Shown here: positions 5,545 to 22,274 of the stretch, piece after piece
How positions within the stretch are numbered: the stretch's first letter is position 1
Layout of the letters: every line of letters starts with the position of its first letter
NCBI RefSeq assembly: GCF_000959445.1
Contig: NZ_CP009632.1
Coordinates: 62,001-126,000, forward strand
Reading direction: 5' to 3'
From: Burkholderia vietnamiensis LMG 10929
GTDB lineage: Bacteria > Pseudomonadota > Gammaproteobacteria > Burkholderiales > Burkholderiaceae
Length of the DNA: 64,000 bases
Program-made: the position numbers and the translations under genes
The notes under the pieces: model-generated
Seen by the model: only the letters and a program-made list of their open reading frames with translations
The model's database searches: none
Told to the model about the DNA's origin: nothing

Positions 5545-5736
5545 ATGGCTGTTGATACCCTCAAGCAACAAGGTGAATTCTTGGTCGAAGCATCCAAGCA
5601 GGCCATGGCTGCATTGGTTTCGGGATATGCGGCCAATGGCCGAACGATTAAAAAAGACGAAGTTGCGGACGAAGCATACGCACTCGCCGCAGCTTTGTAC
5701 GAGAAATTGAAGCGTCAAGGTTGGGTCGGTCGGTAA
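5545..5736 (+). CDS. Hypothetical small protein
   Basis: Product of 63 residues preceded by AAAGAGAGATAAG. It looks amphipathic and helical (QQGEFLVEASKQAMAALV, then DEVADEAYALAAALYEKLKRQ). No family recognised. It is the last intact-looking gene of the accessory segment before the remnants at 5738-6125. Confidence 0.5.
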   Translation: MAVDTLKQQGEFLVEASKQAMAALVSGYAANGRTIKKDEVADEAYALAAALYEKLKRQGWVGR

Positions 5737-5737
5737 T

Positions 5738-5890
5738 CTGTTCGTTCTCCGCATTGCGCTGCCGCTCATAGCGGTAGCACGTTTGGCTTATGCCAAATGC
5801 CTCGCATGCAAGCCGGATCGACACACCCCGGCTCGCTACTGCTTCTCTGGCCATCTCGCGGCGGGTAGATGGCCTCAGTCTTTTTTTGCT
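5738..5890 (-). pseudogene. Remnant of an IS3-family orfB (IS407-like) N-terminus
   Basis: On the minus strand about 50 codons encode RREMAREAVASRGVSIRLAC followed by EAFGISQTCYRYE. This is the characteristic beginning of OrfB in IS407-like elements of the IS3 family. The rest of the transposase and any orfA are absent, and the frame drifts into unrelated sequence on both sides. It marks an old insertion at the island edge. Confidence 0.7.
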
Positions 5891-5909
5891 AGCGCCTCCG
5901 CGACGATCG

Positions 5910-6125
5910 TCGCGGCAGTTGCAGGAGCGGATGCAGTCGATGCTGTTCGAGCGCAGTGCGCTGTCGCGGCAACCCGACGAAGTGATTCGGCGCGAAGTGG
6001 CGCACCTCCGCGACGCGCAGCAGATGACGCCTGACCTCGTGCTGAAAGATCCGTACATCCTCGATTTTCTTGGCCTCGACGATCGCTATCTCGAGCGCGA
6101 TCTCGAGGAGTTAAATGAACCGTGA
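5910..6125 (+). pseudogene. Fragment of a YhcG-type (DUF1016) PD-(D/E)XK nuclease
   Basis: The frame from about 5910 encodes RQLQERMQSMLFERSALS, then MTPDLVLKDPYILDFLGL and LERDLEELNEP before a stop at 6125. This corresponds to the end of the DUF1016 N-terminal domain and the beginning of the nuclease domain; the family is normally about 330-380 residues. The start is lost in the adjoining IS remnant and the nuclease core is deleted, so the gene is dead. Confidence 0.7.
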
Positions 6126-6280
6126 TCTTTCGATGTCGCCCCGACATCGGACGCCACCCCATCGGCTCCCCGCGATCAAATTCAAAATTTGTCTAGTCAT
6201 CCTGCCGATTCGACCGTGAAAACCGCACCAATTCCGTGCCCCGATTCACCACGATGAAGTGCGCTACGCGCCTGAACTTA

Positions 6281-6348: not shown

Positions 6349-6360
6349 TTGTATAGACAA
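6349..6360 (+). promoter_or_regulatory. HutC-type operator candidate
   Basis: TTGTATAGACAA is a near-perfect palindrome (TTGT...ACAA) of the kind bound by HutC-family GntR regulators. It lies 60 bp upstream of the binding-protein start, and a gene for such a regulator ends the same operon (11219-11974). A related partial site is at about 6189-6200. Confidence 0.5.
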
Positions 6361-6419
6361 ATTCCTGAGGCGCTTGCTGCACCGAGGGGATTGCGAACCT
6401 CAACGCAAGGAGAAACCCC

Positions 6420-7280
6420 GTGAACGGCAAGCGCATCAACTGGGCAGTCAGGACGATCGGCATCATCGCGGCTGCGGCGGCCACACTCGCCGCGCCGGTG
6501 CAGGCGAAGGAATGGAAGACGGTGACGGTCGCGCTCGAAGGCGGCTATGCGCCGTGGAACCTCACGCTGCCGGGCGGCAAGCTCGGCGGTTTCGAGCCGG
6601 AACTGCTCGCGAACGTGTGCGAGCGCATCAAGGTGCAATGCAACATGGTCGCGCAGGACTGGGACGGCATGATTCCGGGCCTGCAGGCCGGCAAGTTCGA
6701 TGTGCTGATGGATGCGATCTCGATCACGCCGGAGCGCGAGAAGATCCTGCTGTTTTCGCGCCCGTATGCGGCCACGCCGGCGACCTTCGCCGTCACCGAT
6801 ACGAAGATCCTGCCGAAGGCGTCGCCCGCCGCGCCGGTCGTGAAGCTGACCGGTGACGCGAACGCGGACAAGCCGACCGTCGATGCGCTGCGCAAGCAGC
6901 TGAAGGGCAAGACGATCGGCATCCAGTCGGGCACCGTCTACACCAAGTTCATCAATGACAGCTTCAAGGACATCGCGTCGATCCGCGTGTACAAGACCTC
7001 GCCGGAGCGCGACCTCGATCTCGTCGCCGGCCGTATCGACGCGTCGTTCGACGACGTCACGTACTACGCGGCGAACATCGCGAAGAAGGACAACGCATCG
7101 ATCGTGCTGGCAGGCCCGAAGCTCGGCGGCCCGATCTGGGGGCCCGGCGAAGGGCTCGCGTTCCGCAAGCAGGATGCCGACCTGAAGACGAAGTTCGATA
7201 CGGCGATCGGCGCCGCACTCGCGGACGGCACCGTCAAGAAGCTCGCCGACAAGTGGTTCAAGACCGACGTCACGCCGTAA
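6420..7280 (+). CDS. Polar amino-acid-type ABC transporter substrate-binding protein
   Basis: Periplasmic solute receptor of 286 residues (SBP_bac_3 / HisJ-ArgT family). Start is a GTG at 6420 behind AAGGAG at 6408-6413. The N-terminus has basic residues, a hydrophobic stretch and an Ala-rich cleavage region ending near VQAKEW. Family features include GYAPWNL, the GFEPEL lobe and FDVLMDAISITPERE. It heads an operon with two permeases, an ATPase, a MIO-less ammonia-lyase homologue and a HutC-like regulator. By context the ligand is an imidazole amino acid; ergothioneine or another histidine betaine fits better than histidine because of the lyase. Confidence 0.88.
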   Translation: MNGKRINWAVRTIGIIAAAAATLAAPVQAKEWKTVTVALEGGYAPWNLTLPGGKLGGFEPELLANVCERIKVQCNMVAQDWDGMIPGLQAGKFDVLMDAISITPEREKILLFSRPYAATPATFAVTDTKILPKASPAAPVVKLTGDANADKPTVDALRKQLKGKTIGIQSGTVYTKFINDSFKDIASIRVYKTSPERDLDLVAGRIDASFDDVTYYAANIAKKDNASIVLAGPKLGGPIWGPGEGLAFRKQDADLKTKFDTAIGAALADGTVKKLADKWFKTDVTP

Positions 7281-7372
7281 GCGCGTGTCCGTCTGCCGTC
7301 GCGTGACCGGCCCGGCCGGCGCGCGGCGGCACGCATCATCGGAAGTCCTTCAACGTATGCCGGGAGGCACGC

Positions 7373-8095
7373 ATGGCGATTCTTGAAATGCTCGGCTTCG
7401 GAACCGACGGCTGGGGCGGTGTGCTGTTGCTCGCCGCGCTGATGACGGTCGCGCTGACGCTCGCCGCGCTGGCGGTGGGCGCCGCGATCGGCGCGGTGAT
7501 CGCGGCAGCCAAGCTGTCGCGTCACCGCAGCGCCCGCCTGCTCGGCGACCTGTACACCACCGTGTTTCGCGGCGTGCCCGAACTGCTCGTGATCTACCTG
7601 TTCTATTTCGGCGGCTCGACGCTCGTCACGGCCGTCGGCCAGTGGTTCGGCGCGGACGGCTTCATCGGCGTGCCGCCGTTCGTGATCGGCGCGCTCGCGG
7701 TCGGGATGATTTCCGGCGCGTATCAGGCCGAGGTGTATCGCGCGGCCGTGCTGGCGGTAGCGAAGGGCGAGCTCGAAGCGGCGCGCTCGATCGGCATGCC
7801 GCGCGGCATGGTGTTGCGCCGGATCCTCGTTCCGCAGGTGCTGCGCTTCGCGTTGCCCGGCATCGGCAACGTCTGGCAACTGAGCCTGAAGGACTCGGCG
7901 CTGATCTCGGTCACCGGGCTCGCGGAGCTGCTGCGCACGAGCCAGGTCGCGGCGAATTCGACGCACCAGTATTTCCTCTTCTTCGTCGCGGGCGGCGCGC
8001 TGTATCTGCTGATGACGGCCTTGTCGAACCGCGTGTTCAACCGCGCCGAAGCGCTCGTCGGCCGCTCGTTCCGCCGCAACTTCGCACGCAACTGA
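7373..8095 (+). CDS. ABC transporter permease, HisQ-like
   Basis: Inner-membrane subunit of 240 residues with about five transmembrane helices. The N-terminal part contains RGVPELLVIYLFYFGG, typical of polar amino-acid permeases. The cytoplasmic coupling segment is EAARSIGMPRGMVLRRILVP with the conserved EAA-x3-G. It follows the binding protein after 92 bp and is followed 12 bp later by the partner permease, so the two form the heterodimeric channel. Substrate cannot be read from this subunit alone. Confidence 0.88.
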   Translation: MAILEMLGFGTDGWGGVLLLAALMTVALTLAALAVGAAIGAVIAAAKLSRHRSARLLGDLYTTVFRGVPELLVIYLFYFGGSTLVTAVGQWFGADGFIGVPPFVIGALAVGMISGAYQAEVYRAAVLAVAKGELEAARSIGMPRGMVLRRILVPQVLRFALPGIGNVWQLSLKDSALISVTGLAELLRTSQVAANSTHQYFLFFVAGGALYLLMTALSNRVFNRAEALVGRSFRRNFARN

Positions 8096-8107
8096 CGGAG
8101 CGCCCGC

Positions 8108-8854
8108 ATGACCTTCGATTTCGACTTCCTCGCCGACACGCTGCGCCAGTTGCTCGCGGCCGTGCCGACCACGCTGGGCCTGTTCTTCGCGTCGCTCGTG
8201 CTCGGCGGCCTGCTGTCGCTCGTGATCGTCGCGATGCGCGTGTCGCCGCACTGGCTGCCGAACCGCTTCGCGCGCGCCTACATCCTCGTGTTTCGCGGCT
8301 CGCCGCTGCTGATCCAGATGTTTCTCGTCTACTACGGGCTCGGTCAGTTCGGCGTGATCCGCGAAAGCTTCGTGTGGCCGCTGCTGCGCGATCCCTACGC
8401 ATGCGCGGTGCTGTCGCTCGCGTTGTGCACGGCCGGCTATACGGCCGAGATCGTGCGCGGCGGGCTGATGGCCGTGCCGGTCGGGCAGATCGAGGCCGGT
8501 TATTCGATCGGGCTGTCGGGCTTCGCGCTGCTGCGCCGCGTGATAGGGCCGATCGCATTGCGCCAGTGTTTGCCCGCTTATTCGACCGAGGCCGTGCTGC
8601 TGGTCAAATCGACCGCGCTCGCGAGCCTCGTGACGGTGTGGGAGGTCACGGGCGTCGCGCAGCAGATCATCCAGCAAACCTACCGCACGACCGAGGTGTT
8701 CGTTTGTGCGGCCCTCATCTATCTGGGCCTGAACTTCATCATCGTGCGCGTGCTCGGCGCACTCGAATGGCGGCTCTCCGCGCACTTGCGCGCGCCGAAG
8801 CCGTCCGGCCCGTCCGCAGCGACGACGCACAATCCGCGGCGCGCGGCGTCCTGA
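8108..8854 (+). CDS. ABC transporter permease, HisM-like
   Basis: Second permease of 248 residues. It carries RGSPLLIQMFLVYYGL, a hallmark of the HisM/GlnP group, and a coupling loop (IEAGYSIGLSGFALLRRVI) in place of a canonical EAA motif. Five to six hydrophobic helices are visible. The C-terminal tail after about residue 225 is Ala/Arg/Pro-rich. The gene lies between the first permease and the ATPase. Confidence 0.88.
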   Translation: MTFDFDFLADTLRQLLAAVPTTLGLFFASLVLGGLLSLVIVAMRVSPHWLPNRFARAYILVFRGSPLLIQMFLVYYGLGQFGVIRESFVWPLLRDPYACAVLSLALCTAGYTAEIVRGGLMAVPVGQIEAGYSIGLSGFALLRRVIGPIALRQCLPAYSTEAVLLVKSTALASLVTVWEVTGVAQQIIQQTYRTTEVFVCAALIYLGLNFIIVRVLGALEWRLSAHLRAPKPSGPSAATTHNPRRAAS

Positions 8855-8881
8855 GCGCCCCGCCATTTCCAGGAGAATCCG

Positions 8882-9673
8882 ATGAACACCGCTGCTCCCG
8901 TTGCGCTGTCGGTCAAGAACATCCACAAGTCGTTCGGCGATCACCACGTGCTGAAGGGTATTTCGCTCGACGCGCACGAAGGCGACGTCATCTCGATCCT
9001 CGGCGCGAGCGGCTCGGGCAAGAGCACCTTCCTGCGCTGCCTGAACCTGCTGGAGACGCCCGACGACGGCTCCGTCGCGCTCGCCGGCGAGGAACTGAAG
9101 ATGAAGCGCACGCGCGACGGCAAGCTGCAGCCGGGCGACCGTCGCCAGGTCGATCGCATCCGCTCGCAGCTCGGGATGGTGTTTCAGAACTTCAACCTGT
9201 GGTCGCACATGACCGTGCTCGACAATCTGGTCGAAGGTCCGCTGCGCGTGCTGAAGCGCAGCCGCGCGGAAGCGGTCGAGGAAGCCGAGGCGCTGCTGGC
9301 GCGTGTCGGCCTCGCCGACAAGCGCGGCTACTATCCCGCGCATCTGTCCGGCGGTCAGCAGCAGCGCGTCGCGATCGCGCGCGCGCTCGCGATGCATCCG
9401 AAGGTGATGCTGTTCGACGAGCCGACGTCGGCGCTCGATCCGGAGCTGGTCGGCGAGGTGCTGCGCGTGATGCGCTCGCTCGCGGAGGAAGGGCGCACCA
9501 TGCTGGTCGTCACGCATGAAATGGGCTTCGCGCGGCACGTGTCGAATCGCGTGATGTTCCTGCATCAGGGCGAAGTCGATTGCGACGGGCCGCCCGCCGC
9601 GCTGTTCGGCGGCGAGTGTTCCGCGCGCTTCGGGCAGTTCGTGTCGAGCCACCACGACCGCGCCGCGAACTGA
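8882..9673 (+). CDS. ABC transporter ATP-binding protein, HisP-like
   Basis: Cytoplasmic ATPase of 263 residues. Walker A is GASGSGKST (about residues 41-49), the signature is LSGGQQQR, Walker B is [14 protein letters not shown] and the switch His is in VVTHEMGFA. The insertion [20 protein letters not shown] after the first strand pair is usual in HisP/GlnQ homologues. A ribosome-binding site AGGAGAA precedes the start. It powers import with the two permeases just upstream and is followed 7 bp later by the lyase homologue. Confidence 0.92.
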
Positions 9674-9680
9674 GCCCATC

Positions 9681-11174
9681 ATGACCGTCTTCCGTTCTGC
9701 ACGGCCGCTCGACTGGCGGCAGATTGCGGCCGTCGCGGCCGGCGCGTCGCTGGCGTTGACCGACGAGGCGCGCGGGCGCGTCGCGGCGGCGCGCGGGCTC
9801 GTCGACGAGATCGTCGCGCGCGGCATTCGCGCGTACGGCGTCAATACCGGCGTGGGTGCGCTGTGCGACGTGATCGTGTCGCCGGCCCAGCAGAGCACGC
9901 TGTCGCACAACATCGTGATGAGCCACGCCGTGGGTGTCGGCATGCCGCTCGGCCCGGCCGAAACGCGCGCGATCATCGCGGCGGCGATCAACAACTTCGC
10001 ACATGGGCATTCGGGCGTGCGTCCGGAGGTGGTCGATCAGCTCGTCGCGTTGCTGGAGCACGATTGCCTGCCGGAAGTGCCGGCGCACGGCTCGGTCGGC
10101 TATCTGACCCACATGGCGCACGTGGCGCTCGTGTGCATCGGCCACGGCCACGCGCGCCATCGAGGCGAGCGCATCGGCGGCGGCGACGCGCTGCGGCGCG
10201 TCGGGCGCGAGCCGCTCGCGCTCGGCGCGAAGGAAGGGCTGAGCCTCGTCAACGGCACGCCGTGCGTGACCGGGCTCGCCGCGCTCGCGCTGGCGCGCGC
10301 GGAGCGCCTGCTCGACTGGGCCGACTGGATCGCGGCGGCGAGCTTCGAGAATCTCGGCGGCCAACTGGCCGCATTCGACCCGGCGTCGCTCGCGCTGCGG
10401 ATCTCGCCCGGCATCGCGCAGGTCGGCACGCGCCTGCGGGCGATGCTCGCCGACAGCCCGCTGCTCGCCGCTGCGAGCGGGCGGCGCACGCAGGATCCGT
10501 TGAGCCTGCGCACGATCCCGCACGTGCACGGCGCGGCGCGCGACGTGTTCGCCGTGACGGCGGAAGTCGTCGATCGCGAGCTCGCGTCCGTGACCGACAA
10601 CCCGATCGTCGCCGGCACGCGCGACGCGCCGGTCGTTCATTCGCAGGCCCATGCGGTCGGCGCGGGCATCGCGCTGGCGATGGACAGCCTCGCGGCCGCG
10701 ATGGCGCAGGTCGCGGCCATCGCCGAGCGGCGGCTCGACCGTCTCGTGAATCCGCTCGTGAGCGGGCTGCCGGCGTTCCTCGCCGCGCCCGGCGGCACGT
10801 GCTCGGGCTTCATGATCGCGCAGTACACGGCGGTCGCGCTGGTCGCGCAGAACCAGCGGCTGGCGGCGCCGGCGAGCCTCGACGGCGGCATCACGTCCGG
10901 GCTGCAGGAAGATCACCTGTGCCACGCGACGCCTGCCGCGCTGAAGGCGCTCGACATCATCGAGAACGCGACGCGCGTGCTCGCGATCGAGTTGCTGGCC
11001 GCCGCGCAGGCATACGATCTGCAGGCGGGCAACACCGGGCGCGCCGCGTCGACCGATGCGCTGTGGCGCCATGTGCGCGAGCAGGTGCGGGCGTATCGCG
11101 ACGATCGGCCGCTGGCCGACGACATCGCGATCGCGGCCGCGATCGTCGCGGGGCCGCCGTTACCCGTGCGCTAG
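9681..11174 (+). CDS. Histidine-ammonia-lyase homologue lacking the MIO triad; probable ergothionase
   Basis: Product of 497 residues in the aromatic amino-acid lyase fold: YGVNTGVG (52-59), QDPLSLRTIPHVHGAARD, TDNPIV and a conserved C-terminal helical core. True histidine ammonia-lyases have GSVGASGDLAPLAH, whose Ala-Ser-Gly cyclises into the MIO electrophile. Here GSVG (137-140) is followed directly by YLTHMAH, so the triad is absent and MIO cannot form. A known MIO-free branch is ergothionase, which removes trimethylamine from ergothioneine to give thiourocanate and has been reported from a Burkholderia isolate. Coupling to a HisJQMP-type importer and a HutC-like regulator fits. Substrate assignment is inference; another betaine lyase or an inactive paralogue is possible. 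Confidence 0.7.
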   Translation: MTVFRSARPLDWRQIAAVAAGASLALTDEARGRVAAARGLVDEIVARGIRAYGVNTGVGALCDVIVSPAQQSTLSHNIVMSHAVGVGMPLGPAETRAIIAAAINNFAHGHSGVRPEVVDQLVALLEHDCLPEVPAHGSVGYLTHMAHVALVCIGHGHARHRGERIGGGDALRRVGREPLALGAKEGLSLVNGTPCVTGLAALALARAERLLDWADWIAAASFENLGGQLAAFDPASLALRISPGIAQVGTRLRAMLADSPLLAAASGRRTQDPLSLRTIPHVHGAARDVFAVTAEVVDRELASVTDNPIVAGTRDAPVVHSQAHAVGAGIALAMDSLAAAMAQVAAIAERRLDRLVNPLVSGLPAFLAAPGGTCSGFMIAQYTAVALVAQNQRLAAPASLDGGITSGLQEDHLCHATPAALKALDIIENATRVLAIELLAAAQAYDLQAGNTGRAASTDALWRHVREQVRAYRDDRPLADDIAIAAAIVAGPPLPVR

Positions 11175-11218
11175 CGGCGACGCGCAGCGGCATTCAACTT
11201 TCCTTAGGTCGAGGGCGC

Positions 11219-11974
11219 ATGAACGAAACGGAACGACACGCATCGGCACGCCGAGCGGCTGCGCCGCGCGACGACGTGCCGGCACGCGCGCTGCCGGCGT
11301 ACCAGCAGATCAAGCGCTACGTCGTGGAGCGGATCGCGAACGGCGACTGGAAGCCCGGCGGCGCGATTCCGACGGAGGCCGAGCTCGTCAAGGAATTCGG
11401 CGTGGCGCGGATGACGGTGTCGCGCGCGCTGCGCGAGCTGACCGCCGAGCGCGTGCTGACGCGCATCCAGGGCGCGGGCACGTTCGTCGAGCGGCGGCAC
11501 TACGAATCGACGGTGCTGGAAATCCGCAACATCGCGGACGAGATCGCGGAGCGCGGCCATCGGCACAGCGCGCGCGTGCTGCTGATCGAGCGCAGCGTCG
11601 AGCCGGAAGCGATCGACGCGCTGGGGCTGCGCTCGGGGCCGGTGTTCCATTCGCGCATCGTGCATTACGAGGAAGACGAGCCGATCCAGTTCGAAGATCG
11701 CTACGTGAACCCGGCCTTGTTTCCCGACTACCTCGAGCAGGACTTCACGGTCGACACGCCGAACCATTACATGGTGCGGCTCGCGCCGATCCAGCACGCC
11801 GAGTTCCGCATCTACGCGGAGAAGCCGAACGCGCAGGTGCGTCGCCATCTCGTCATGGAAATCGGCGAACCGTGCCTGCTGTTGAAGCGCCGCACGTGGG
11901 TCGGCGAGCACGTCGCCACGTCGGTCACGCTGTGGCATCCGGCGTCGCGGTTTCATCTCGCCGGGACGATGTAG
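11219..11974 (+). CDS. GntR-family regulator, HutC subfamily (UTRA domain)
   Basis: Product of 251 residues. The N-terminal winged helix (about residues 20-90) contains PAYQQIKRYV, GGAIPTEAELVKEFGVARMT and VSRALRELTAERVLTRIQGA. The C-terminal UTRA ligand domain ends with RTWVGEHVATSVTLWHPASR. HutC proteins sense urocanate and repress histidine-utilisation genes; here the expected inducer would be the product of the adjacent lyase, possibly thiourocanate. It is the last gene of the operon and probably acts at the palindrome at 6349-6360. The start codon is ATG 11219. Confidence 0.85.
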   Translation: MNETERHASARRAAAPRDDVPARALPAYQQIKRYVVERIANGDWKPGGAIPTEAELVKEFGVARMTVSRALRELTAERVLTRIQGAGTFVERRHYESTVLEIRNIADEIAERGHRHSARVLLIERSVEPEAIDALGLRSGPVFHSRIVHYEEDEPIQFEDRYVNPALFPDYLEQDFTVDTPNHYMVRLAPIQHAEFRIYAEKPNAQVRRHLVMEIGEPCLLLKRRTWVGEHVATSVTLWHPASRFHLAGTM

Positions 11975-12085: not shown

Positions 12086-13108
12086 TCAGTGCGCGTCGAC
12101 CAAGCGCGGATCGATATACGTGTCGACGTCCTGCGCCTGCTTGTACACCGCGTTGCGCACGTTGAACGCGTTGGCGTTACGCGTCGAGCCGTAGATCGAA
12201 TCGAGCCCGTCGCCCTTGCGGAACGCGCGCTTCGCGGCCGCCTCGTCGAGCAGGTGGGTGCCCTTCAGCAGTGGCAGATATTGCTCCGGCTTGAGGCCGA
12301 CGCGCGCCGACATGATCTTGACCGCATCGGCCTGCGTCTTCGGATCGTTGATGTAGGCGACGCAGCGATACCAGACCTTGACGATCTTCGCCCAGTCGGC
12401 GCGACGCGCGGCGAGGCTCGCCGGCGCGACCGTGATCGCATCGTAGATCAGCCCCGGCGCATCGGCCGACGTGAAGATCGCCCGCGCGCCCGGTGCGCGC
12501 TTCAACGCCTCGCCGGCGTTCGGCTGCCATGCGGCCACCGCGGCGATGTCGGACGACGAACCGAGCACCTGCGGCAGTTCGTTGGTCTTCGCGTTCACGA
12601 GCGTGACGTCGCCGTCCTTGAGCCCGTGCTTCTGCAGCGCGGTTTCGAGCAGCAGATGATCGACGAGGCCCAGCTCGACGCCGACCTTCTTGCCTTTCAG
12701 CGCCTCGACGGTGCGCACCGGCGGCTTCGCGACGATCATGTCGTTGCCGGCCGAATAGTCGGTCAGCAGCACCATCACGTTCTTCGCGCCGGACGCGCCG
12801 GTCACGAGCGCGTCGCCGTTGGTCGCGGCGACCGCGTCGAGCTTGCCCGCGGAGAACGCATCGAGCGACGCCGAATAATCGAACCATTCGAAATCGACGT
12901 CGACGCCGGCTTCCTTGAACCAGCCCTTGTCGAGCGCGACCTGGAAGGCGACCCAGCCCGGCCAGTCGCTGTAGCCGATCTTCAGCGGCGCGGCCGCGTG
13001 CGCGGCGGGTGCGGCCCACAGCGCGGCGGCCGCGGCGGCGGCCCCCAATGCATGACGGATGAGACGGAAGGACGGCAGGCGGCGCAACGCCGAGGCGGGA
13101 CGGGTCAT
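12086..13108 (-). CDS. ABC transporter substrate-binding protein of the guanidine/urea locus
   Basis: Periplasmic binding protein of 340 residues in the NMT1/SsuA-TauA group. It has a long Ala-rich signal peptide ending around AAHAAAPLKIGY, then GWVAFQVALDKGWFKEAGVD and the ASLDAFSAGKLDAVA segment typical of the group. The gene is transcribed away from the main operon and has its own guanidine-I riboswitch (13249-13361) in its leader. Its permease and ATPase partners are the last two genes of the divergent operon (21255-23186). The ligand is therefore likely guanidine or a derivative, though annotation pipelines would call it urea- or nitrate/taurine-type. Confidence 0.85.
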   Translation of the reverse strand: MTRPASALRRLPSFRLIRHALGAAAAAAALWAAPAAHAAAPLKIGYSDWPGWVAFQVALDKGWFKEAGVDVDFEWFDYSASLDAFSAGKLDAVAATNGDALVTGASGAKNVMVLLTDYSAGNDMIVAKPPVRTVEALKGKKVGVELGLVDHLLLETALQKHGLKDGDVTLVNAKTNELPQVLGSSSDIAAVAAWQPNAGEALKRAPGARAIFTSADAPGLIYDAITVAPASLAARRADWAKIVKVWYRCVAYINDPKTQADAVKIMSARVGLKPEQYLPLLKGTHLLDEAAAKRAFRKGDGLDSIYGSTRNANAFNVRNAVYKQAQDVDTYIDPRLVDAH

Positions 13109-13248
13109 CGTTGTTCTCCAGGAGACCGGGATCGGGATCGTCGATACGGATCGTGTGCGAGCACACGGTCCGGCTGCGTGACCGGTTCCTGCGGATGCGG
13201 AACGGACGGGCGGCCACGGAGAGGCGCGACGGCCGTTGCCATCGCCAA

Positions 13249-13361
13249 TCTCCCGGGCTTTTGTCCCGCCGTGTAGCGCGCGGGCGTCCGTTTTCGTGAT
13301 CGGACGCCCGCGCGCCGGGCTGCTCTCGGACCAGACGTTCGATGAACCGGAACCCTAGCGA
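13249..13361 (-). ncRNA. Guanidine-I riboswitch (ykkC) controlling the binding-protein gene
   Basis: Read on the minus strand, the leader contains CTAGGGTTCCGG (from 13358), then CTGGTCCGAGAGC, a very long hairpin and finally ACGGCGGGACAAAAGCCCGG plus GAGA ending near 13249. These are the conserved blocks of the ykkC subtype 1 (guanidine-I) aptamer in the right order. The variable helix has a perfect 15-bp stem (13276-13290 with 13301-13315). The coding start is 140 nt further downstream. The class senses guanidinium and turns genes on. Confidence 0.92.
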
Positions 13362-13852
13362 CCCTAAGATGCGACACCGCCGCACCTCTCGGCGTCATGT
13401 CGAGCGAGAAGCGTGCCAATCGATGCCGATCGGTGTCGGTCGCGCGCGGTCGCACTCGGCCGTGCGACTCAACGGCGTCGTGCGCTGCGCTGAAGTTCGA
13501 TGAAGCGTGCGGCGAACAGCGCGCTCAGGGCGCGCCGGAGCAGGTCGAGCTTGTTCATGAAGGAGCGGATGGCGAGTGGCGTCGCTGCGATTTTCAGCAA
13601 TGCCCATGCCATCGGGTATCGCGCGGCCCGCGCACGTGAAGCCCAGGTGGGGCGCACTGAGCCGGTGCGCCGGCGCGTGCGCATGGTGCGCCGCACGCCC
13701 GCCGCGAGGGCAAGCGTCTGCCGGGCTGCTCGAGCATGCCGCGCCGTCGCGGGTTGTCGTGCGGGCGCCGGGCAGTCTTCATGCGTCGGCTGGCACGCAA
13801 CTCGCTTCATCGACCCCCGAGAGGTGCGAAGCAATTTGCATCATCTTCAGGA
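13362..13852. other. Intergenic region between the two divergent riboswitches
   Basis: About 490 bp with no gene I can support. A minus-strand open frame (13469-13834) has a hydrophobic C-terminal part (MAWALLKIAATPLAIRSFM), but its N-terminal half is Arg/Ala-rich and no family is recognised. Promoters for both leaders must lie here; no convincing -35/-10 pair was found by eye. Confidence 0.5.
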
Positions 13853-13980
13853 TCGCTAGGGTTCCGGTCGTGTGGCGCAGGCGCGCCGCGCGATGTCTGG
13901 TCCGAGAGCAATCCGGTCTTGCCTTCGCCTCGACGAGAGGAAACGGCGAGGCTCCACGGAGGGATAAAAGCCCGGGAGGT
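13853..13980 (+). ncRNA. Guanidine-I riboswitch (ykkC) controlling the degradation operon
   Basis: CTAGGGTTCCG at 13856-13866, CTGGTCCGAGAG at about 13896-13907 and CACGGAGGGATAAAAGCCCG followed by GGAGGT (ending 13980) match the conserved blocks of the guanidine-I aptamer in order and spacing. It lies 57 nt upstream of the first DUF1989 gene. No clear terminator stem with a U-run separates it from the start codon, so translational or Rho-linked control is as likely as intrinsic termination. Confidence 0.93.
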
Positions 13981-14037
13981 CGCGATGTCGTTCGGTCGCC
14001 CTCTCACGCCCTTTGTCCAACCGACCCCGGAGCCGTC

Positions 14038-14793
14038 ATGTCGCCGAGCCCCCAAGCCGTTCTCGCCCCGCCGCCACACATCGGGTGGGAAGCCTTGATT
14101 CCCGCCGGAACCCACTGGTCCGGCATCCTGCGCCGCGGCCTCGCGCTGCGCATCGTCGATATCGAAGGCGGCGCGAACCTGTCCGCCGTCTTTCATCGCC
14201 AGGAAGATCTGCTCGAACGCTACAACATGGCCGATACGCTGAAGGCGCAGCACACCGCGCATCTGACGCGCGGTCATGCGCTGTACACGGACATGGGTCG
14301 CGTGATCGCGTCGATCACGGCCGACACGCTGGGCTGGCACGACCCGCTCGGCGGCGTCGGCGATGCGCGGCTCTTTGCGAGCAAGTACGGCACGACGTCG
14401 TATCAGGCCGTGCGCAACGCGATGGTCCGCAACGGCCGCGACAGCCTCGTGCTCGAGCTCGCGAAATACGGCTTGTCGGCGCGCGACCTCGCGGCGAACG
14501 TCAACTTCTTCAGCAGGCTCGACACCGGCGACGACGGCGCGCTCGATTTCGTCGTCGGACATTCGCCGGCCGGCAGCACGCTCGACCTGCGCTTCGAGAT
14601 GAACACGCTCGCGGCGTTCTCGACCGCGCCGCATCCGCTCGACCCGCGCGCCGACTATGCGCCGAAGCCCGTGAAGCTGATCGCCTACCGCGCGTATCCG
14701 GCCGACGGCGCGGCACCCGACGACGACCCGTGCCGGTGCGCCTGCGCGGAAAACACGCGCGGCTTCGCCAACACCGACCGTCTGTTCGCCTAA
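14038..14793 (+). CDS. DUF1989 protein, first subunit gene (urea-carboxylase-associated / carboxyguanidine deiminase)
   Basis: Product of 251 residues starting at ATG 14038, just after the riboswitch; the open frame extends further upstream through the aptamer but that part is not coding. DUF1989 features are GTHWSGILRRGLALRIVD, NMADTLKAQHT and a C-terminal Cys-rich DDDPCRCACAENTRG. Homologues were first named urea-carboxylase-associated proteins and were later shown to act as a two-subunit carboxyguanidine deiminase (CgdAB) in guanidine degradation. The second subunit gene starts 11 bp downstream. Role here is inferred from the family, the operon and the riboswitch. Confidence 0.88.
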   Translation: MSPSPQAVLAPPPHIGWEALIPAGTHWSGILRRGLALRIVDIEGGANLSAVFHRQEDLLERYNMADTLKAQHTAHLTRGHALYTDMGRVIASITADTLGWHDPLGGVGDARLFASKYGTTSYQAVRNAMVRNGRDSLVLELAKYGLSARDLAANVNFFSRLDTGDDGALDFVVGHSPAGSTLDLRFEMNTLAAFSTAPHPLDPRADYAPKPVKLIAYRAYPADGAAPDDDPCRCACAENTRGFANTDRLFA

Positions 14794-14804
14794 GGAGCGC
14801 CGCC

Positions 14805-15461
14805 ATGCCGATCATCGAAAGCCGTCTCGACCCGCGCGACGCGATCCACGACACCACGCTGCCCGCGGGCGAACCGTGGCTGCACGACCTGAAGCGCGGC
14901 CAGATCTTCCGGATCCTCGACCTCGAAGGCAACCAGGCCGTCGACACGCTGTTCTACCGCACCGACGACACCGACGAACGCTATAGCGCGCAGGACACGA
15001 TCCGCGCGCAGCGCAACCTGTACCTGAGCGCCGGCAGCGTGCTGCTGTCGAGCCGCGGCAACCCGATGGCGACGATCGTCGCCGACACCTGCGGGCGTCA
15101 TGACACGCTCGGCGGCGCGTGCGCGGCTGAGAGCAACAGCGTGCGCTACGCGCTCGACAAGCGCTACATGCACAACTGCCGCGACAGCTTCCTCAACGCG
15201 ATCACGCACTGCGCGTGCGGTGCCGGCGCAGGGCTCACGAAGCGCGACCTCGTCGGCAACGTCAACTTCTTCATGAACGTGCCCGTCACGCCGAGCGGCG
15301 GGCTCACGTTCGAGGACGGCATCTCGGCGCCCGGCAAGTACGTCGAGATGCGCGCGGAGATGGACGTCACGGTGCTGATCTCGAACTGCCCGCAGCTGAA
15401 CAATCCGTGCAACGGCTACAACCCGACGCCGGTGCGCCTGCTCGTCTGGGAGGCCCGATGA
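14805..15461 (+). CDS. DUF1989 protein, second subunit gene
   Basis: Product of 218 residues, homologous to the preceding protein. It has [34 protein letters not shown] and [17 protein letters not shown], and conserved Cys/His positions including [10 protein letters not shown] and [17 protein letters not shown], likely metal-binding. The two DUF1989 proteins presumably form one enzyme that converts carboxyguanidine to allophanate. ATG 14805 follows TAAGGAGCG, which serves both as stop and ribosome-binding site. The carboxylase gene starts about 130 bp downstream. Confidence 0.88.
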
Positions 15462-15588
15462 ACGGCCTGCACGCTCACGATCGTTCGACGCGCGGCCGCC
15501 TCCGCCACGCCGCCCGGATAGTTGCGCGCGCAGCGATGCGCGGCGCATGCCGCGCTACGCCCATCGGCGCCGCCGCGCGGGAGGCAGC

Positions 15589-18500
15589 ATGAGATTCGCC
15601 AAAGTCCTCGTCGCGAACCGCGGCGAAATCGCGTGCCGCGTGATCCGGACGCTGAAGCGCCTCGGCATCGCGTCCGTCGCGATCTATTCCGATGCCGATC
15701 GCGACGCGCGCCACGTGGCGCTCGCCGACGAAGCGATACGCGTCGGCCCCGCGCCGGCCGCCGACAGCTATCTGAACGTCGCGGCGATCCTCGCGGCCGC
15801 GCACGCAACCGGCGCGCAGGCCGTGCATCCCGGCTACGGCTTCCTGTCCGAGCATGCGGGCTTCGCCGACGCATGCGAGGCGGCCGGCCTGCGTTTCATC
15901 GGCCCGCGCGGCGAGCACATGCGCGCGTTCGGCCTCAAGCACACCGCGCGCGAGCTTGCCGCCGCGCACGGCGTCGCGCTGCTGCCCGGCACCGGGCTGC
16001 TCGGCGACGTCGCGGCGGCGCTTGCCGCAGCCGATGCGATCGGCTATCCGGTGATGCTCAAGAGCACGGCCGGCGGCGGCGGCATCGGCATGTCGCTGTG
16101 CCGCGATGCGGCGCAGCTCGACGCGGCGTTTGACTCCGTCGTGAGGCTCGGCAACGTGAACTTCGCGCATGCGGGCGTCTATCTGGAGAAGTTCGTCGAG
16201 CATGCGCGGCACATCGAAGTGCAGATTTTCGGCGACGGCCGCGGCGGCGCGATCGCGCTCGGCGAGCGCGATTGCTCGGTGCAGCGGCGCAACCAGAAGG
16301 TGATCGAGGAAACGCCCGCGCCCGACTTGACCGCCGCCGAACGCGACGCGCTGCACGCGAGCGCGGTGCGGCTCGCGCGCGCGGTCGGCTACGCGTCGGC
16401 CGGCACGGTCGAGTTCGTGTTCGACGCGAGCGCGCGGCACTTCTATTTTCTCGAGGTCAACACGCGCTTGCAGGTCGAGCATTGCGTGACCGAAGCGGTG
16501 ACGGGCATCGATCTCGTCGAATGGATGATCCTGCAGGCCGAAGGCGATCTGCCGCCGCTCGACGCGCTCGCCGTCGCGCCGCGCGGCGCGAGCATCCAGG
16601 TGCGGCTCTACGCGGAGGACCCGAACAAGCAGTTCCAGCCGAGCGCGGGGCTGCTCACGCACGTCGCGTTTCCCGACGACGTGCGCGTCGACGGCTGGAT
16701 CGAGGCGGGCACGGAGATCAGCGCGCATTACGATCCGCTGCTCGCGAAACTGATCGTGCGCGGCGACACGCGCCGCGATGCGCTGGCCGCGCTGCAGGCC
16801 GCGCTGGCGCGCACCGAGCTGTACGGGATCGAGACCAACCTCGACTACCTGCGCGCGATCGCCGGCTCGGACACGTTCGCGCACGGCGCGCCGACCACCG
16901 CGTTCCTGTCGCGCTTCGCGTTCGCGCCGCATACGATCGACGTGCTCGACGGCGGCATGCAGACCACCGTGCAGCAGGCGCCGGGGCGCGTCGGCTACTG
17001 GAGCGTCGGCGTGCCGCCGTCGGGGCCGATGGACGACCGCGCGTTCGACCTCGCGAACGCGCTGCTCGGCAACCCGCGCGACGCGGCCGGGCTCGAATTC
17101 ACGATGGTCGGCGCGACGCTGCGCTTCAACACGGCGACGCTGTTCGTGCTCGGCGGCGCGCCGCTCGCGGCGACCCTCGACGGCGAGCCTGCGCCGTTCT
17201 GGCAGGTGTTGCGCGCGCGGCCGGGCGCGGTGCTGAAGCTCGGCGGCGTGACCGGCGCGGGCGTGCGCGCATGCCTCGCGGTGAAAGGCGGGCTGCAGGT
17301 GCCCGACTATCTCGGCAGCAAGGCGACCTTCACGCTCGGCCAGTTCGGCGGCCACGCGGGGCGCGCGCTGCGCCGCGGCGACGTGCTGCACCTGCACGCC
17401 GTCGCCGCGCGCGGCGACGCCGGTGCGACGCTGCCCGCGGCCGAGATTCCCGCGCTCACGCATGCGTGGACGCTCGGCGTGCTCGACGGTCCGCACGGTG
17501 CGCCGGACTTCTTCACGCCGGACGACATCGCGATGCTCTACGGCACGCAATGGACGGTTCACTACAACTCTAGCCGCACGGGCGTGCGGCTGATCGGCCC
17601 GAAGCCGCAATGGGCGCGGGCCGACGGCGGCGAGGCCGGCCTGCATCCGTCGAACATCCACGACAACGCATACGCGATCGGCGCCGTCGATTTCACCGGC
17701 GACATGCCGGTGATCCTCGGCCCGGACGGGCCGAGCCTCGGCGGCTTCGTGTGTCCGGTCACGGTCGTGCGCGACGAGCTGTGGAAGCTCGGCCAGCTGC
17801 GGCCGGGCGATACCGTGCAGTTCGTGCGCGTGGCGGCGGACGTGGTGTCGGCGTTGCCGGGTGGGGCGGCCGACGGCGCTATAGCCTCGAATACCGCCGA
17901 AACAGATGCGGCCGCGAGTAGTGCGACGCAAACCTTCGTCACGGCCCCGGCCGCCGCGCTCGCGCCCGCCGCGCCGGCCGTCATAACCGGCTCGACCGCC
18001 GAGCCCAGCGAGCCCGGCGACTGCATACTGGCGCGCGACGCATCGGCCGGCGGCGGCATCGGCGTCGTCTACCGGCGCTCCGGCGATCGCAACGTGCTCG
18101 TCGAATACGGGCCGCTCGTGCTCGACCTGAACCTGCGTTTTCGCGTGCATGCGCTGATGTGCTGGCTCGACGCGCATCGTCTGCCCGGCATGCTCGACCT
18201 GACGCCGGGCATCCGTTCGCTGCAGGTGCAGTTCGACCCGCGCACGCTGCCGCTCGATGCGCTGCTCGTGCATCTGCAGGCCGCCGAGCGCGAACTGCCC
18301 GACGTAACCGACATGCGCGTGCCGAACCGCATCGTGCATCTGCCGCTGTCGTGGGACGATCCGTCGACCCGCGTCGCGATCGAGCGCTACATGCAATCGG
18401 TGCGGCCCGATGCGCCGTGGTGCCCGAGCAACATCGAGTTCATCCGCCGCATCAACGGCCTCGCCCACATCGACGACGTGAAGCGCATCGTGTTCGACGC

Positions 18501-19302
18501 GCGCTATCTGGTGATGGGGCTCGGCGACGTCTATCTCGGCGCGCCCGTCGCGACGCCGATCGATCCGCGGCACCGGCTCGTGACCACCAAATACAACCCC
18601 GCCCGCACGTGGACGCCCGAGAATGCGGTCGGCATCGGCGGCGCGTACCTGTGCGTGTACGGGATGGAAGGGCCGGGCGGCTACCAGTTCGTCGGCCGCA
18701 CGGTGCAGATGTGGAACCGTCATCGGACCACGCGCGAATTCGAAGCCGGCAAGCCGTGGCTGCTGCGCTTCTTCGATGAGATTCGCTTCTACGAAGTGAG
18801 CGAAGCGGAGCTGAGCGCGCTGCGCGCGGATTTCATCGCGGGCCGCGCGGCGCTGAAGATCGAGGAATCGGTATTCGACCTGCGCGCATACAACGGCTTC
18901 CTGCGCGACGAGGCCGATTCGATCGCCGCGTTCAAGGCCTCGCAGCAGGCCGCGTTCGACGCGGAGCGCGAGCGCTGGCGCGCGGCCGGGCATGCGGAAT
19001 ACGTCGGCGACGCCGAGCCGGGCGACGCGCAAGCGGCGCGCGTCGCGGGCGCGCTCGACGCTACGCAGCGCGCGATTGCGGCGGACGTGTCGGGCAGCGT
19101 CTGGAAGGTGCTGGTCGAAGCCGGCGAGCGCGTGACCGAAGGTCAGGTCGTCGCGATCGTCGAGTCGATGAAGATGGAGGTGGCGGTGACGGCAACGGAA
19201 AGCGGCACGATCGAGACGATCGATTGCGCGCCGGGCGCGGCGGTGGTGGCCGGGCAGCGGCTGATGGTGATGAAGGCGGGCGCCGCCGAGGAGGTCGCAT
19301 GA
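15589..19302 (+). CDS. Biotin-dependent urea/guanidine carboxylase
   Basis: Product of 1237 residues. In order: biotin carboxylase (about 1-450, [19 protein letters not shown]-grasp loop [22 protein letters not shown]), KipI/KipA-like segments of the carboxyltransferase (about 460-1100, [37 protein letters not shown]) and a C-terminal biotinyl domain with VESMKMEV, biotinyl Lys at residue 1195. It carboxylates urea, or more probably guanidine here given the riboswitch and DUF1989 partners, using ATP and bicarbonate. A low-complexity linker rich in Ala/Thr (about 760-800) separates the two carboxyltransferase parts. The start ATG 15589 has GGGAGGCAG before it; its stop overlaps the next start (ATGA). 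Confidence 0.92.
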
Positions 19303-21191
19303 GCACGACGCAACCTTCGATTCTGCCGGGGCTGCATTCGATCGCCGAACTGCGCGCGCGCTATGCGGCGGGCGAGCTGACGCCGCATGCGCTCGTCGAG
19401 GCGATCGCCGCGCATTTCGACGCGGGCGATCCGCACCATGCGTGGATCAGGCCGCTCACGCTCGCGGAGATGAGCGAGTATGCGCACGCGCTCGCCGCGC
19501 GCGACCCCGCATCGTTGCCGCTTTACGGCGTGCCGTTCGCGATCAAGGACAACATCGACCTCGCCGGCATCCCGACCACGGCCGGCTGTCCGGCCTATGC
19601 GTATACGCCCGAACGCAGCGCGCCGGTCGTCGCGCGGCTGATCGCGGCCGGCGCGATTCCGATCGGCAAGACCAATCTCGACCAGTTCGCGACGGGGTTG
19701 TCGGGGCAGCGCTCGCCTTACGGCGCGTGCCGCAATGCGCTCGACCCGCGCTACGCGTCGGGCGGCTCGAGCTCCGGCTCGGCGGTGGCCGTCGCGCTCG
19801 GCGTCGCAACGTTCTCGCTCGGCACCGACACGGCCGGCTCGGGCCGCGTGCCGGCCGCGTTCCACGGGCTCGTCGGGCTCAAGCCGACGCGCGGCGTGTT
19901 GAGCACGCTCGGCGTCGTGCCGGCGTGCCGCTCGCTCGATTGCGTATCGGTGTTCGCCCGTTCGCCGGCCGATGCGCGCGCGGTGTTCGACGTCGCGCAG
20001 GGCGTCGCCGAACGCGATCCGTATGGGCGCGCATGGCAGCCGCTGCTCGACGCCCATGGCGTGCGCGCGCGGCCGGCGCCGCCGCTCGGGCAACTGCGCT
20101 TCGGCGTGCCGCGCGCCGATCAGCTCGAGTTCTACGGCGACGCGTCGTATCGCGCTGCATGGGACGCGGCGCTCGTCCGATTGCGCGCGACCGGCGCGCG
20201 AGTCGTCGAGATCGACTTCGGCCCGTTTCTGTCCGCCGCGCGGCTGCTGTACGGCGGCCCGTGGGTGGCCGAACGCGTCGCCGCGATCGGCGCGTTTGCC
20301 GCGCGGCAGCCCGATGCGCTGCATCCGGTGATCCGCGAAATCCTCGGCGGCGCCTCGCGCTTCAGCGCGGCCGATGCGTTCGCGGCGTTCGACCAGCTCG
20401 CGACGCTGCGCGTCGACGCGGCTGCCGCGTGGGAAGGGCTCGACGCGATCGCGATGCCGACCTCGCCGACGACCGCGACCGTCGACGCGCTCGAAGCCGA
20501 TCCGATCGCGATCAACTCGCGCTTCGGCTACTACACGAACTTCGTGAACCTGCTCGATCTGTCGGCGATCGCGGTGCCTGCCGGCACCTGCGAAACCGGG
20601 CCGCATGCGGGCCTGCCGTTCGGGATCACGTTCGTCGGCCGCGCGCACGACGACGCGCGCCTGCTCGATCTCGCGCAGGCGTGGGGCGACGGCGTCGGTC
20701 ACGCCGACGGTGCGGTCGCTGCGACGTCGGCGGCCGCGTCGATAGCCGCGTCGATGGCCGCAAATCGCGCCTGCGCCGGCTTCGTGCGCGTGGCCGTCGT
20801 CGGTGCGCATCTGCGCGGCGAACCGTTGAACGGCGAGCTCACGCAGCGCGGCGCGCGCTTCGTCGCCGAGACCACGACCGCGCCCGCCTATCGCCTGTAC
20901 GCGCTGTCCGCCGCGACCAGCGGCGGCGTCGCGAAACCGGGCCTCGTGCGCGTGCCGGCCGGCGGCGCGCCGATCGCGGTGGAGGTCTGGGAAATGCCGG
21001 TCGACGCGTACGGCAGCTTCGTCGCCGGCATCGCGGCGCCGCTCGGCATCGGCACGCTGACGCTCGCGGACGGCGCGACGGTGCAGGGCTTCGTCTGCGA
21101 AAGCGCGGCGCTCGACGATGCGCAGGACATCACGCGCTTCGGCGGCTGGCGCGCTTATCGCGCGCAGGCCGCGAGCCGCGCGCTGCAATGA
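19299..21191 (+). CDS. atzF: Allophanate hydrolase
   Basis: Product of 630 residues. The N-terminal amidase domain has the Ser-cisSer-Lys triad: Lys83 in [10 protein letters not shown], Ser in GGSSSGSA (about 157-158) and Ser181 in [10 protein letters not shown]. The C-terminal domain (about 480-630) has [20 protein letters not shown] and [14 protein letters not shown], typical of allophanate hydrolases and absent from ordinary amidases. It converts allophanate to ammonia and CO2, the last step of urea carboxylase or guanidine carboxylase pathways. ATG 19299 overlaps the carboxylase stop by 4 bp. Confidence 0.93.
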
Positions 21192-21254
21192 ACGTCCGGT
21201 CGCGCGGGGCTGCGGCCTGCGCGCGACCGGCACCCAAACGATACGGAGATTTCC

Positions 21255-22229
21255 ATGTCAACGACCCGCAATACGACCGGATGGCTCGCCGTGCGCCGCG
21301 AACTGACGACGCGCGGCAAGTGGACGCTCGGCATCGCGTCCTTCTTACTGCCGTTCGCCGTCTGGTGCCTGGTCAGCTACGTGCCGTTCATTTGGCATCC
21401 GCAAATGCGCATCACGAATCCCGGCAGCGTCGACTATTTCCAGACCGGCATGCAGATCGACCGCGACGTGTTCGACGACGAGCTCGCGCATGCGCGCGCC
21501 ACGCACGCGGCCGTGCCGGAGGGCGTGCGCGCGAATCCGGTGTACCTGCCGGCGCCGCATCAGGTGCTGCGCGCGTTCTATACCGCGTTCACGACGCCGC
21601 CCGCGTCGCGCGACGGCGTGTGGCTGCACGAGAGCCTGTGGCACAGCATCCGGATCATCTTCTGGGGCTTCGTGATTTCGTCCGCGATCGGCGTGCCGCT
21701 CGGCATCGTGTGCGGCACGTTCAGCGCGCTCGCGCGGCTGCAGGAGCCGTTCCTCGAATTCTTCCGCTACCTGCCGGCCCCGGCGTTCGGCGCGCTGATG
21801 GTCGCGATCCTCGGCATCTACGACGCGCCGAAGATCGCCATCATCGTGATCGGTACGCTGTTCCAGCAGGTGCTGATCGTCGCGAACACCACGCGCAAGC
21901 TCGAATACGGGCTGTTCGAGGCCGCGATGACGCTCGGCACCAACAAGCTGAAGCTGCTCACGCACGTCGTGATTCCGGGCGTGCTGCCCGACCTGTATCG
22001 CGACCAGCGCATCCTGCTCGGCTGGGCATGGACCTACCTGATCGTCGCGGAGCTCGTCGGCACCAGCTCGGGCATCACCTGGTACATCAGCCAGCAGGCG
22101 CGCTACCAGCATTTCGACAACGTCTACGCGGCGATCCTGATGATCGGGATCATCGGCGTCGGCACCGATCTCGCGCTCGGCGCGCTCGGCCGCCGGCTGT
22201 TTCCGTGGGACCGCACGCTCAAAGCGTGA
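21255..22229 (+). CDS. ABC transporter permease of the guanidine/urea locus
   Basis: Membrane subunit of 324 residues in the SsuC/TauC class. After a first hydrophobic helix (IASFLLPFAVWCLVSYVPF) there is an unusually long periplasmic insertion (about residues 40-120) before the core helices; long N-terminal insertions are common in this locus type. The coupling segment is FEAAMTLGTNKLKLLTHVVI with EAA-x3-G. It is followed by its ATPase gene and works with the binding protein encoded at 12086-13108. Confidence 0.88.
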   Translation: MSTTRNTTGWLAVRRELTTRGKWTLGIASFLLPFAVWCLVSYVPFIWHPQMRITNPGSVDYFQTGMQIDRDVFDDELAHARATHAAVPEGVRANPVYLPAPHQVLRAFYTAFTTPPASRDGVWLHESLWHSIRIIFWGFVISSAIGVPLGIVCGTFSALARLQEPFLEFFRYLPAPAFGALMVAILGIYDAPKIAIIVIGTLFQQVLIVANTTRKLEYGLFEAAMTLGTNKLKLLTHVVIPGVLPDLYRDQRILLGWAWTYLIVAELVGTSSGITWYISQQARYQHFDNVYAAILMIGIIGVGTDLALGALGRRLFPWDRTLKA

Positions 22230-22274
22230 CGCCCGCTCGCGCATACCCATCGACCGATCGTTGCAGAGGCCATC

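Follow-up and report, generated by a model that had tools for sequence, protein, structure and literature searches.

Ammonia lyases require the 4-methylidene-imidazole-5-one (MIO) cofactor for departure of the amine, and in histidine ammonia-lyase (HAL, the product of hutH) both the MIO triad and Tyr280 are essential. Ergothioneine is made from hercynine (N-alpha-trimethyl-L-histidine, or histidine betaine), a compound found in fungi, mycobacteria and cyanobacteria. We analysed a six-gene operon (6420–11974, all genes on the + strand) in a 64,000-nucleotide stretch of Burkholderia vietnamiensis LMG 10929 (contig NZ_CP009632.1, positions 62,001 to 126,000, assembly GCF_000959445.1; hereafter "the window", with coordinates counted from its first nucleotide), which combines a MIO-less homologue of the aromatic-amino-acid lyases with an ABC importer and a HutC-type regulator. 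The closest described systems are HutH, the ergothionase of Treponema denticola (PDB 6s7j/6s7q), HutC, and the HisJQMP and opine (nopaline NocT, octopine OccJ) importers.

The lyase resembles HutH in fold (Foldseek TM 0.92, with ~36% identity to Pseudomonas HAL), in most of its substrate-side residues, in the hut gene neighbourhoods of its relatives and in its HutC-type control, but differs in lacking the MIO triad, in having Leu in place of Tyr280, in the Asn of the NFH motif being mostly His in its clade, and in falling below the curated hutH cut-off. Like the T. denticola ergothionase, it is a MIO-free protein of PF00221 fold with Leu where HAL has Tyr280 and, by our proposal, it eliminates trimethylamine from a histidine-derived betaine. 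The importer is of the same ABC class as HisJQMP and the opine importers, with the opine-binding proteins closest by sequence, but differs in being paired with a lyase. The regulator (11219–11974) passes the HutC model, and its operator is the same as the site predicted at the source genome's hut promoter; however, it is a paralogue, with ~50% identity to the HutC that belongs to the hut operon. We consider it probable that this operon is for the uptake of hercynine and the MIO-free elimination of trimethylamine from it to give urocanate, under HutC control.

Loss of the MIO triad

The lyase, a proposed hercynine trimethylamine-lyase, is encoded by an ATG-initiated open reading frame of 497 amino acids at 9681–11174 (+ strand). 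Both the Pfam model (PF00221, 496 bits) and the fold place it in this family, and with the hutH model it scored 450.1 bits against a curated cut-off of 539.15. An earlier note on this stretch had pointed out that the MIO triad is absent, and this was confirmed: residues G137-S-V-G140 continue directly as Y141-L-T-H-M-A-H147 (codons of GSVG-YLTHMAH, residues 137–147, at 10089–10121, + strand), so that the gap left by the triad falls between residue 140 and residue 141. In alignment with canonical HutH exactly three residues, Ala-Ser-Gly, are missing and the next Asp is replaced by Tyr. The MIO-forming triad was found in all 35 MIO-bearing comparison rows (33 ASG and 2 CSG), and both other PF00221 genes of the source genome retain ASG. 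The substrate-side motifs listed in the same note (YGVNTGVG, SLRTIPHVHGA and TDNPIV) are all found in the lyase.

A sequencing deletion as the cause of the missing triad was not borne out. GSVGYL[ST]HMAH was found in all 121 homologues compared (the window lyase and 120 listed among 6425 matches), and GS[VA]GYL.H in 62/62 loci of the clade, which we call GYL after this motif; these 62 are the loci holding a GYL lyase within a set made up of the best 80 of 595 confirmed matches and 8 chosen plasmid loci. An orthologue of ≥ 90% identity was present in 16 of the 24 same-genus genomes listed, the source genome included, and dN/dS was 0.12–0.30 in all 29 orthologue comparisons. The gene is under purifying selection and the loss of the triad is fixed.

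We also compared the active-site residues, giving HAL positions in the numbering of the Pseudomonas enzyme. Y53, H83, Q277 and R283 are retained in 62/62 clade rows, N195 in 61/62 and E414 in 61/61 (1 further row is truncated). All 62 clade rows have Leu in place of Tyr280, as do the ergothionase-type rows; the 35 MIO-bearing rows all have Tyr. Within the clade, the NFH motif has its Asn replaced by His in 55 rows and by Gln in 1, and retains it in 6. With the HAL substrate residues kept and both the triad and Tyr280 gone, the imidazole/carboxylate side of the enzyme looks like that of a histidine lyase and the amine-leaving side looks emptied. The HAL fold was seen in an AlphaFold2 model of the monomer (mean pLDDT 91.5), which matched HALs slightly better than ergothionase, a comparison which does not discriminate between substrates.

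Relationship to ergothionases

The earlier note had read the operon as an ergothioneine-scavenging unit that senses thiourocanate. Under this explanation the lyase would be an ergothionase, releasing trimethylamine from ergothioneine to give thiourocanate, which would then be excreted or used by another route. It has in its favour that MIO is absent as in the Treponema enzyme, that Leu stands at the HAL Tyr280 position in both, and that ergothionase activity has been published from Burkholderia; that report states that BLAST of the Burkholderia sp. HME13 enzyme, accession BAM63550, gave only HAL, phenylalanine ammonia-lyase and tyrosine ammonia-lyase names (PMC13405746).

Among solved structures, the lyase matched a histidine lyase at 281.6 bits and the Treponema ergothionase at 168.3 bits; the best match of 2 other MIO-less rhizobial lyases was ergothionase. 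We built a tree, with the MIO columns excluded, from hand-picked rows including 24 of the 62 GYL loci, the window lyase and 17 HALs (10 near-identical of 66 rows were dropped). The GYL rows, including the window lyase, formed one branch (25 rows, support 100/99), and the ergothionases formed a second branch together with a third MIO-less type, AAD (11 rows, support 100/100). The two branches are sisters (93/95), a further point in favour of ergothionase, and the Treponema row sits on a long branch. Forcing the window lyase into the ergothionase branch cost 84 log units and was rejected (approximately unbiased (AU) test: p = 2.2e−9), while a tree with two separate MIO losses was not rejected (p = 0.129). 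The alignment and tree with ergothionases and HALs, which the earlier note had suggested, thus placed the lyase outside the ergothionase clade and in its own MIO-less clade; going by these sequences it is no ergothionase by descent.

The signature residues agree with this placement. GE[GA]D, NKD and K383 were found in 17/17 ergothionase-type rows and, like SxN, are common to such proteins of Treponema and Burkholderiaceae; they are missing from the lyase, which has GYL, LCD, NGT and Y382 at the positions of GE[GA]D, NKD, SxN and K383, respectively. It therefore lacks the NKD, K383 and SxN of the T. denticola enzyme, and has lost 3 residues at the MIO site where ergothionase has lost 1. Tyr at the Lys383 position was also found in 23/35 HALs. 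The MIO-less relatives would need to be divided into at least three types: GYL, ergothionase and AAD.

A search of 299 genomes of the family with the Treponema chain as query gave at least 15 clear ergothionase relatives (262–271 bits; the next match listed had 241). Of those listed, 11 were from the same genus and all 11 had a second urocanase, with ~2 kb between the matched stretches. One ergothionase locus (L153) also encodes an S-Me-THD (thiohydantoin desulfurase-like) family protein, an amidohydrolase and an M20 hydrolase, a gene set which fits the five-step ergothioneine pathway. The 4 listed ergothionase genomes of other genera depart from the paired-urocanase pattern: one (G139) has 1 urocanase, and three (group g3) have 2, both on contigs other than that of the ergothionase-type gene. 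The window lyase differs from ergothionase in having neither a second urocanase nor a thiohydantoin-desulfurase-like gene nearby, and in the hut linkage of its relatives.

The earlier note had proposed looking elsewhere in the source genome for a thiourocanate hydratase in the form of a urocanase paralogue, but only 1 urocanase was found there, adjoining the canonical hutH, which argues against ergothioneine as the substrate. A full-length window-type orthologue was present in 39 other genomes, in 24 of which urocanases were counted. Among the genomes with a GYL lyase and no listed ergothionase, 20/21 had 1 urocanase; in the exception, G177, the second urocanase adjoins an ergothionase-type gene absent from the matches listed. 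Both lyase types were found together in G181, G059 and G032. Of 12 genomes checked which carry hut-linked or betaine-transporter GYL loci, 11 had 1 urocanase, and Thalassospira (G207) had 2, one on the contig of the lyase and one adjoining the canonical hutH.

The MIO-free lyase, the uptake system and the HutC-type control of the earlier reading were therefore upheld, probably with a histidine-derived betaine as the substrate, but ergothioneine as that betaine was not supported, given the AU test, the absent signature residues, the closer match to a histidine lyase and the single urocanase. We regard an ergothionase function as unlikely. Thiourocanate as the signal sensed was likewise not supported; the neighbourhoods of the relatives point to urocanate as the product.

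Two groups of MIO-less genes outside the GYL clade were also observed. The AAD type (GSIGAAD or GSLGAAD; L050:9863–11368 and L102:13981–15519) has Arg at HAL His83, Val or Ala at Asn195 and Lys at ergothionase Lys383. The AAD gene in Rhizobium sp. SU303 adjoins a HutC-type gene and an annotated glycine betaine binding protein gene, and that in Salinicola comes after a hut/BCCT operon; the substrate is perhaps another aromatic betaine. On pSymA of S. meliloti (L049:9797–11437), an ergothionase-type gene annotated as hutH, whose product lacks K383 and also GE[GA]D, lies near an ABC importer and an annotated dimethylsulfoniopropionate lyase gene.

Gene neighbourhoods of the GYL lyases

A hut catabolic gene was found within the flanks (mostly ~10 kb) of 23/62 GYL loci, including hutU in 18; loci L065–L067 count as hut-linked by hutF alone. 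This linkage differed by group, with 0/15 loci in Burkholderia, Paraburkholderia and Trinickia and 23/47 elsewhere. A HutC-type gene was present in 49/62 loci.

In 7 loci (L077, L078, L081, L118, L100, L102 and L103) the lyase gene lies inside a hut operon. The order in L077, L078, L081 and L118 is hutF-lyase-hutI-hutH-hutG-hutU, with a canonical HutH encoded in the same operon, and in L118 a ProX-ProW-ProV-type importer precedes the lyase. In a Rhodoferax metagenome-assembled genome (L100) the order is hutU-binding protein-permease-permease-ATPase-lyase-hutI-hutF-hutG, that is, the five-gene order of the window amid hut genes, and the urocanase of this locus is the only one found in that genome. 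The Salinicola loci (L102 and L103) have the order hutU-BCCT-lyase-hutI-hutG. No canonical HutH was found in the draft genome of Salinicola corii, whose other PF00221 genes are PAL-like with Gln at the HAL Glu414 position or of the other MIO-less type.

These operons bear on whether the lyase could be a MIO-independent histidine ammonia-lyase, either redundant with HutH or standing in for it. Its strong likeness to HutH, its HAL fold and its place in hut operons are all as expected for such an enzyme, and the Salinicola operon encodes no other HutH-like protein. However, the triad and Tyr280 are gone, a canonical HutH is encoded alongside it in L077, L078, L081 and L118, and the betaine-type transporters described below would be left unexplained, so that we consider this very improbable.

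The transporters at the 62 loci were of the window type in 31 and of a betaine type (BCCT or OpuAC/ProX) in 12; no locus had both and 19 had neither. Examples of the betaine type are a BCCT gene before the lyase in Halomonas litopenaei (L104) and an OpuAC-type importer with a HutC gene before the lyase in the agrobacterial loci L088 and L094. Two unrelated classes of transporter swapping beside one enzyme suggests a histidine-derived ligand which is at the same time a betaine. The neighbourhoods of the relatives therefore point to urocanate as the probable product and a betaine as the probable substrate.

A different N-alpha-substituted histidine, such as a partly methylated histidine or a histidine opine like histopine, could also be converted to urocanate. 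Opine-binding proteins take N-substituted amino acids, which would suit hercynine too, and the closest solved chains to the operon's binding protein (6420–7280) were nopaline- and octopine-binding proteins (212 and 208 bits), with HisJ and LAO at ~100–104; the hut linkage and the many loci in rhizobia and agrobacteria would also suit such a substrate. Against this, betaine-type transporters replace the importer in 12 loci and, on chemical reasoning, an uncharged secondary amine would be a poor leaving group without MIO. We find this alternative quite unlikely, a little more so than ergothionase.

In Rhizobium sp. ACO-34A (L045:10031–17727) a GYL lyase is found with an annotated phosphate binding protein, a fatty acid desaturase, aldehyde dehydrogenases and a 2Fe-2S protein, with no hut genes and neither class of transporter; the lyase may serve another purpose there.

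Proposed regulation by a HutC-type repressor

One report describes Pseudomonas HutC as binding TGTA-N2-TACA and being released by urocanate (PMC12977541). The HutC-type palindrome that the earlier note had placed upstream of the operon was found as an exact match, TTGTATAGACAA, at 6349–6360. The pattern derived from it, TTGTMTAKACAA, has 3 exact sites in the source genome (6.93 Mb, 4 contigs): one in the canonical hutH promoter, one at the window operon and one at C3:2934037–2934048. With ≤ 1 mismatch allowed there were 10 sites in the genome versus 2 for the reversed pattern. All 15 Burkholderia, Paraburkholderia and Trinickia loci have such a site upstream of the binding-protein reading frame or at its start, exact in 13. 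The majority of rhizobial loci have no site at ≤ 1 mismatch, which may be due to their operator being different.

A possible second, degenerate operator, TTGTCTAGTCAT, with 2 mismatches, lies at 6189–6200 in the window, 160 bases before the exact site. Paired sites (≤ 1 mismatch each) 161–173 bases apart before the same gene were found in 7/15 Burkholderia-type loci (L054–L056, L058, L059, L095 and L105); L061 has two sites 285 bases apart and 7 of the 15 have a single site.

The regulator gene at 11219–11974 (+ strand) encodes a GntR/HutC-type repressor with GntR and UTRA domains, which scored 282.1 bits with TIGR02018 against a curated cut-off of 220, in agreement with the HutC-type assignment of the earlier note. 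It should be noted that 4 regulators of the source genome are above the HutC cut-off, so there are several candidates for the protein which binds at the window operator. The third exact site (C3:2934037–2934048; L161:8037) has no recognised target gene.

Proposed pathway from hercynine to urocanate

From the anatomy of the operon, the loss of the triad, the separate clade, the shared operator, the hut linkage in relatives, the interchange with betaine transporters and the single urocanase, all of which were observed computationally, we infer the substrate, products, catalytic mechanism and effector. A betaine substrate together with urocanate as product would mean hercynine. Hercynine would be imported via the binding protein and the HisQMP-like importer, and the lyase, with a histidine-lyase fold but no MIO, would take the beta proton and expel trimethylamine to give urocanate. 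MIO may be dispensable here since trimethylamine, in contrast to ammonia, leaves readily by itself, and the deletion of the triad and the change of Tyr280 to Leu may make room for the trimethylammonium group. Urocanate would then join the ordinary Hut pathway, which in the source genome is encoded on a replicon other than that of the operon. As the known effector of HutC, urocanate would also free the repressor of this operon from its operator, which the hut promoter has in common with it.

The source genome also encodes EgtD, of the hercynine synthase family TIGR03438 (C3:787270–788184, 421.8 bits, above the cut-off), so tight control of the operon makes sense. A role of the lyase on internally made hercynine is conceivable. 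A report on Streptococcus EgtUC gives hercynine as bound ~10,000-fold less tightly than ergothioneine (PMC9732360), which indicates that binding proteins are able to distinguish the two compounds.

Several points weigh against this pathway. The host itself probably makes hercynine, which an unregulated lyase would drain. With 0/15 loci near hut genes in Burkholderia and its close kin, the hut link rests on relatives which are 50–66% identical (tblastn); the 62 loci are not independent, many being from rhizobia, and the hut labels are BLAST best matches to one annotated Rhizobium hut operon (and to the window's own genes). In 19/62 loci neither class of transporter was found, and the betaine-type transporters fall below most exact-function cut-offs, so that their betaine ligand is presumptive. 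By eye, the binding protein appears to retain an Asp at the ammonium-binding position of HisJ. The absence of ergothionase Lys383 is common to HALs and so excludes ergothionase without favouring hercynine. The tree is compatible with one or two losses of MIO, and the ergothionases covered by the tree and alignments are others than the enzyme assayed from Burkholderia sp. HME13.

No hercynine-degrading enzyme was found in the open-access literature searched, most subscription journals lying outside that search. On balance we lean towards this being an undescribed route from hercynine to urocanate and trimethylamine, by a MIO-free clade of Burkholderiales, Rhizobiales and halophilic gammaproteobacteria whose members are usually labelled histidine or aromatic amino acid lyase; in Salinicola the enzyme would have taken over from HutH the first step into the Hut pathway, and independent losses of MIO may have occurred in this clade and in the ergothionases, each time that the leaving group became trimethylamine. 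If so, this gene family, at present annotated as histidine ammonia-lyase, would encode a betaine lyase that produces trimethylamine; bacteria of soil and roots would possess a route devoted to the use of histidine betaine as food, and HutC regulons would have to be read anew. The clade would also be a test case for the loss of a cofactor by an enzyme whose substrate supplies its own leaving group.

Operon organisation and flanking genes

The gaps between the six genes range from 7 to 92 bases. The full polar-amino-acid importer described in the earlier note is encoded by the first four genes: a periplasmic binding protein of the SBP_bac_3 family with a GTG start (6420–7280, +; PF00497, 116.8 bits); a HisQ-like ABC permease (7373–8095, +; PF00528), which scored 178 bits with the HisQ model, below the cut-off of 319; a HisM/ArtM-like ABC permease (8108–8854, +; PF00528), with 169 bits for ArtM and 153 for HisM, both below their cut-offs; and a HisP-like ABC ATPase (8882–9673, +; PF00005), with 361 bits for the HisP model, below the cut-off of 466.

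Upstream of the operon, at 5648–6125, are remnant coding stretches with weak, below-cut-off matches to a YhcG nuclease domain (+ strand) and a helix-turn-helix domain (− strand). Adjoining the operon on the other side, at 12086–23186, is a urea-carboxylase-type system comprising an NMT1-type binding protein, UAAP1, UAAP2, urea carboxylase, allophanate hydrolase and an ABC importer; gene sets of this type often act on guanidine.

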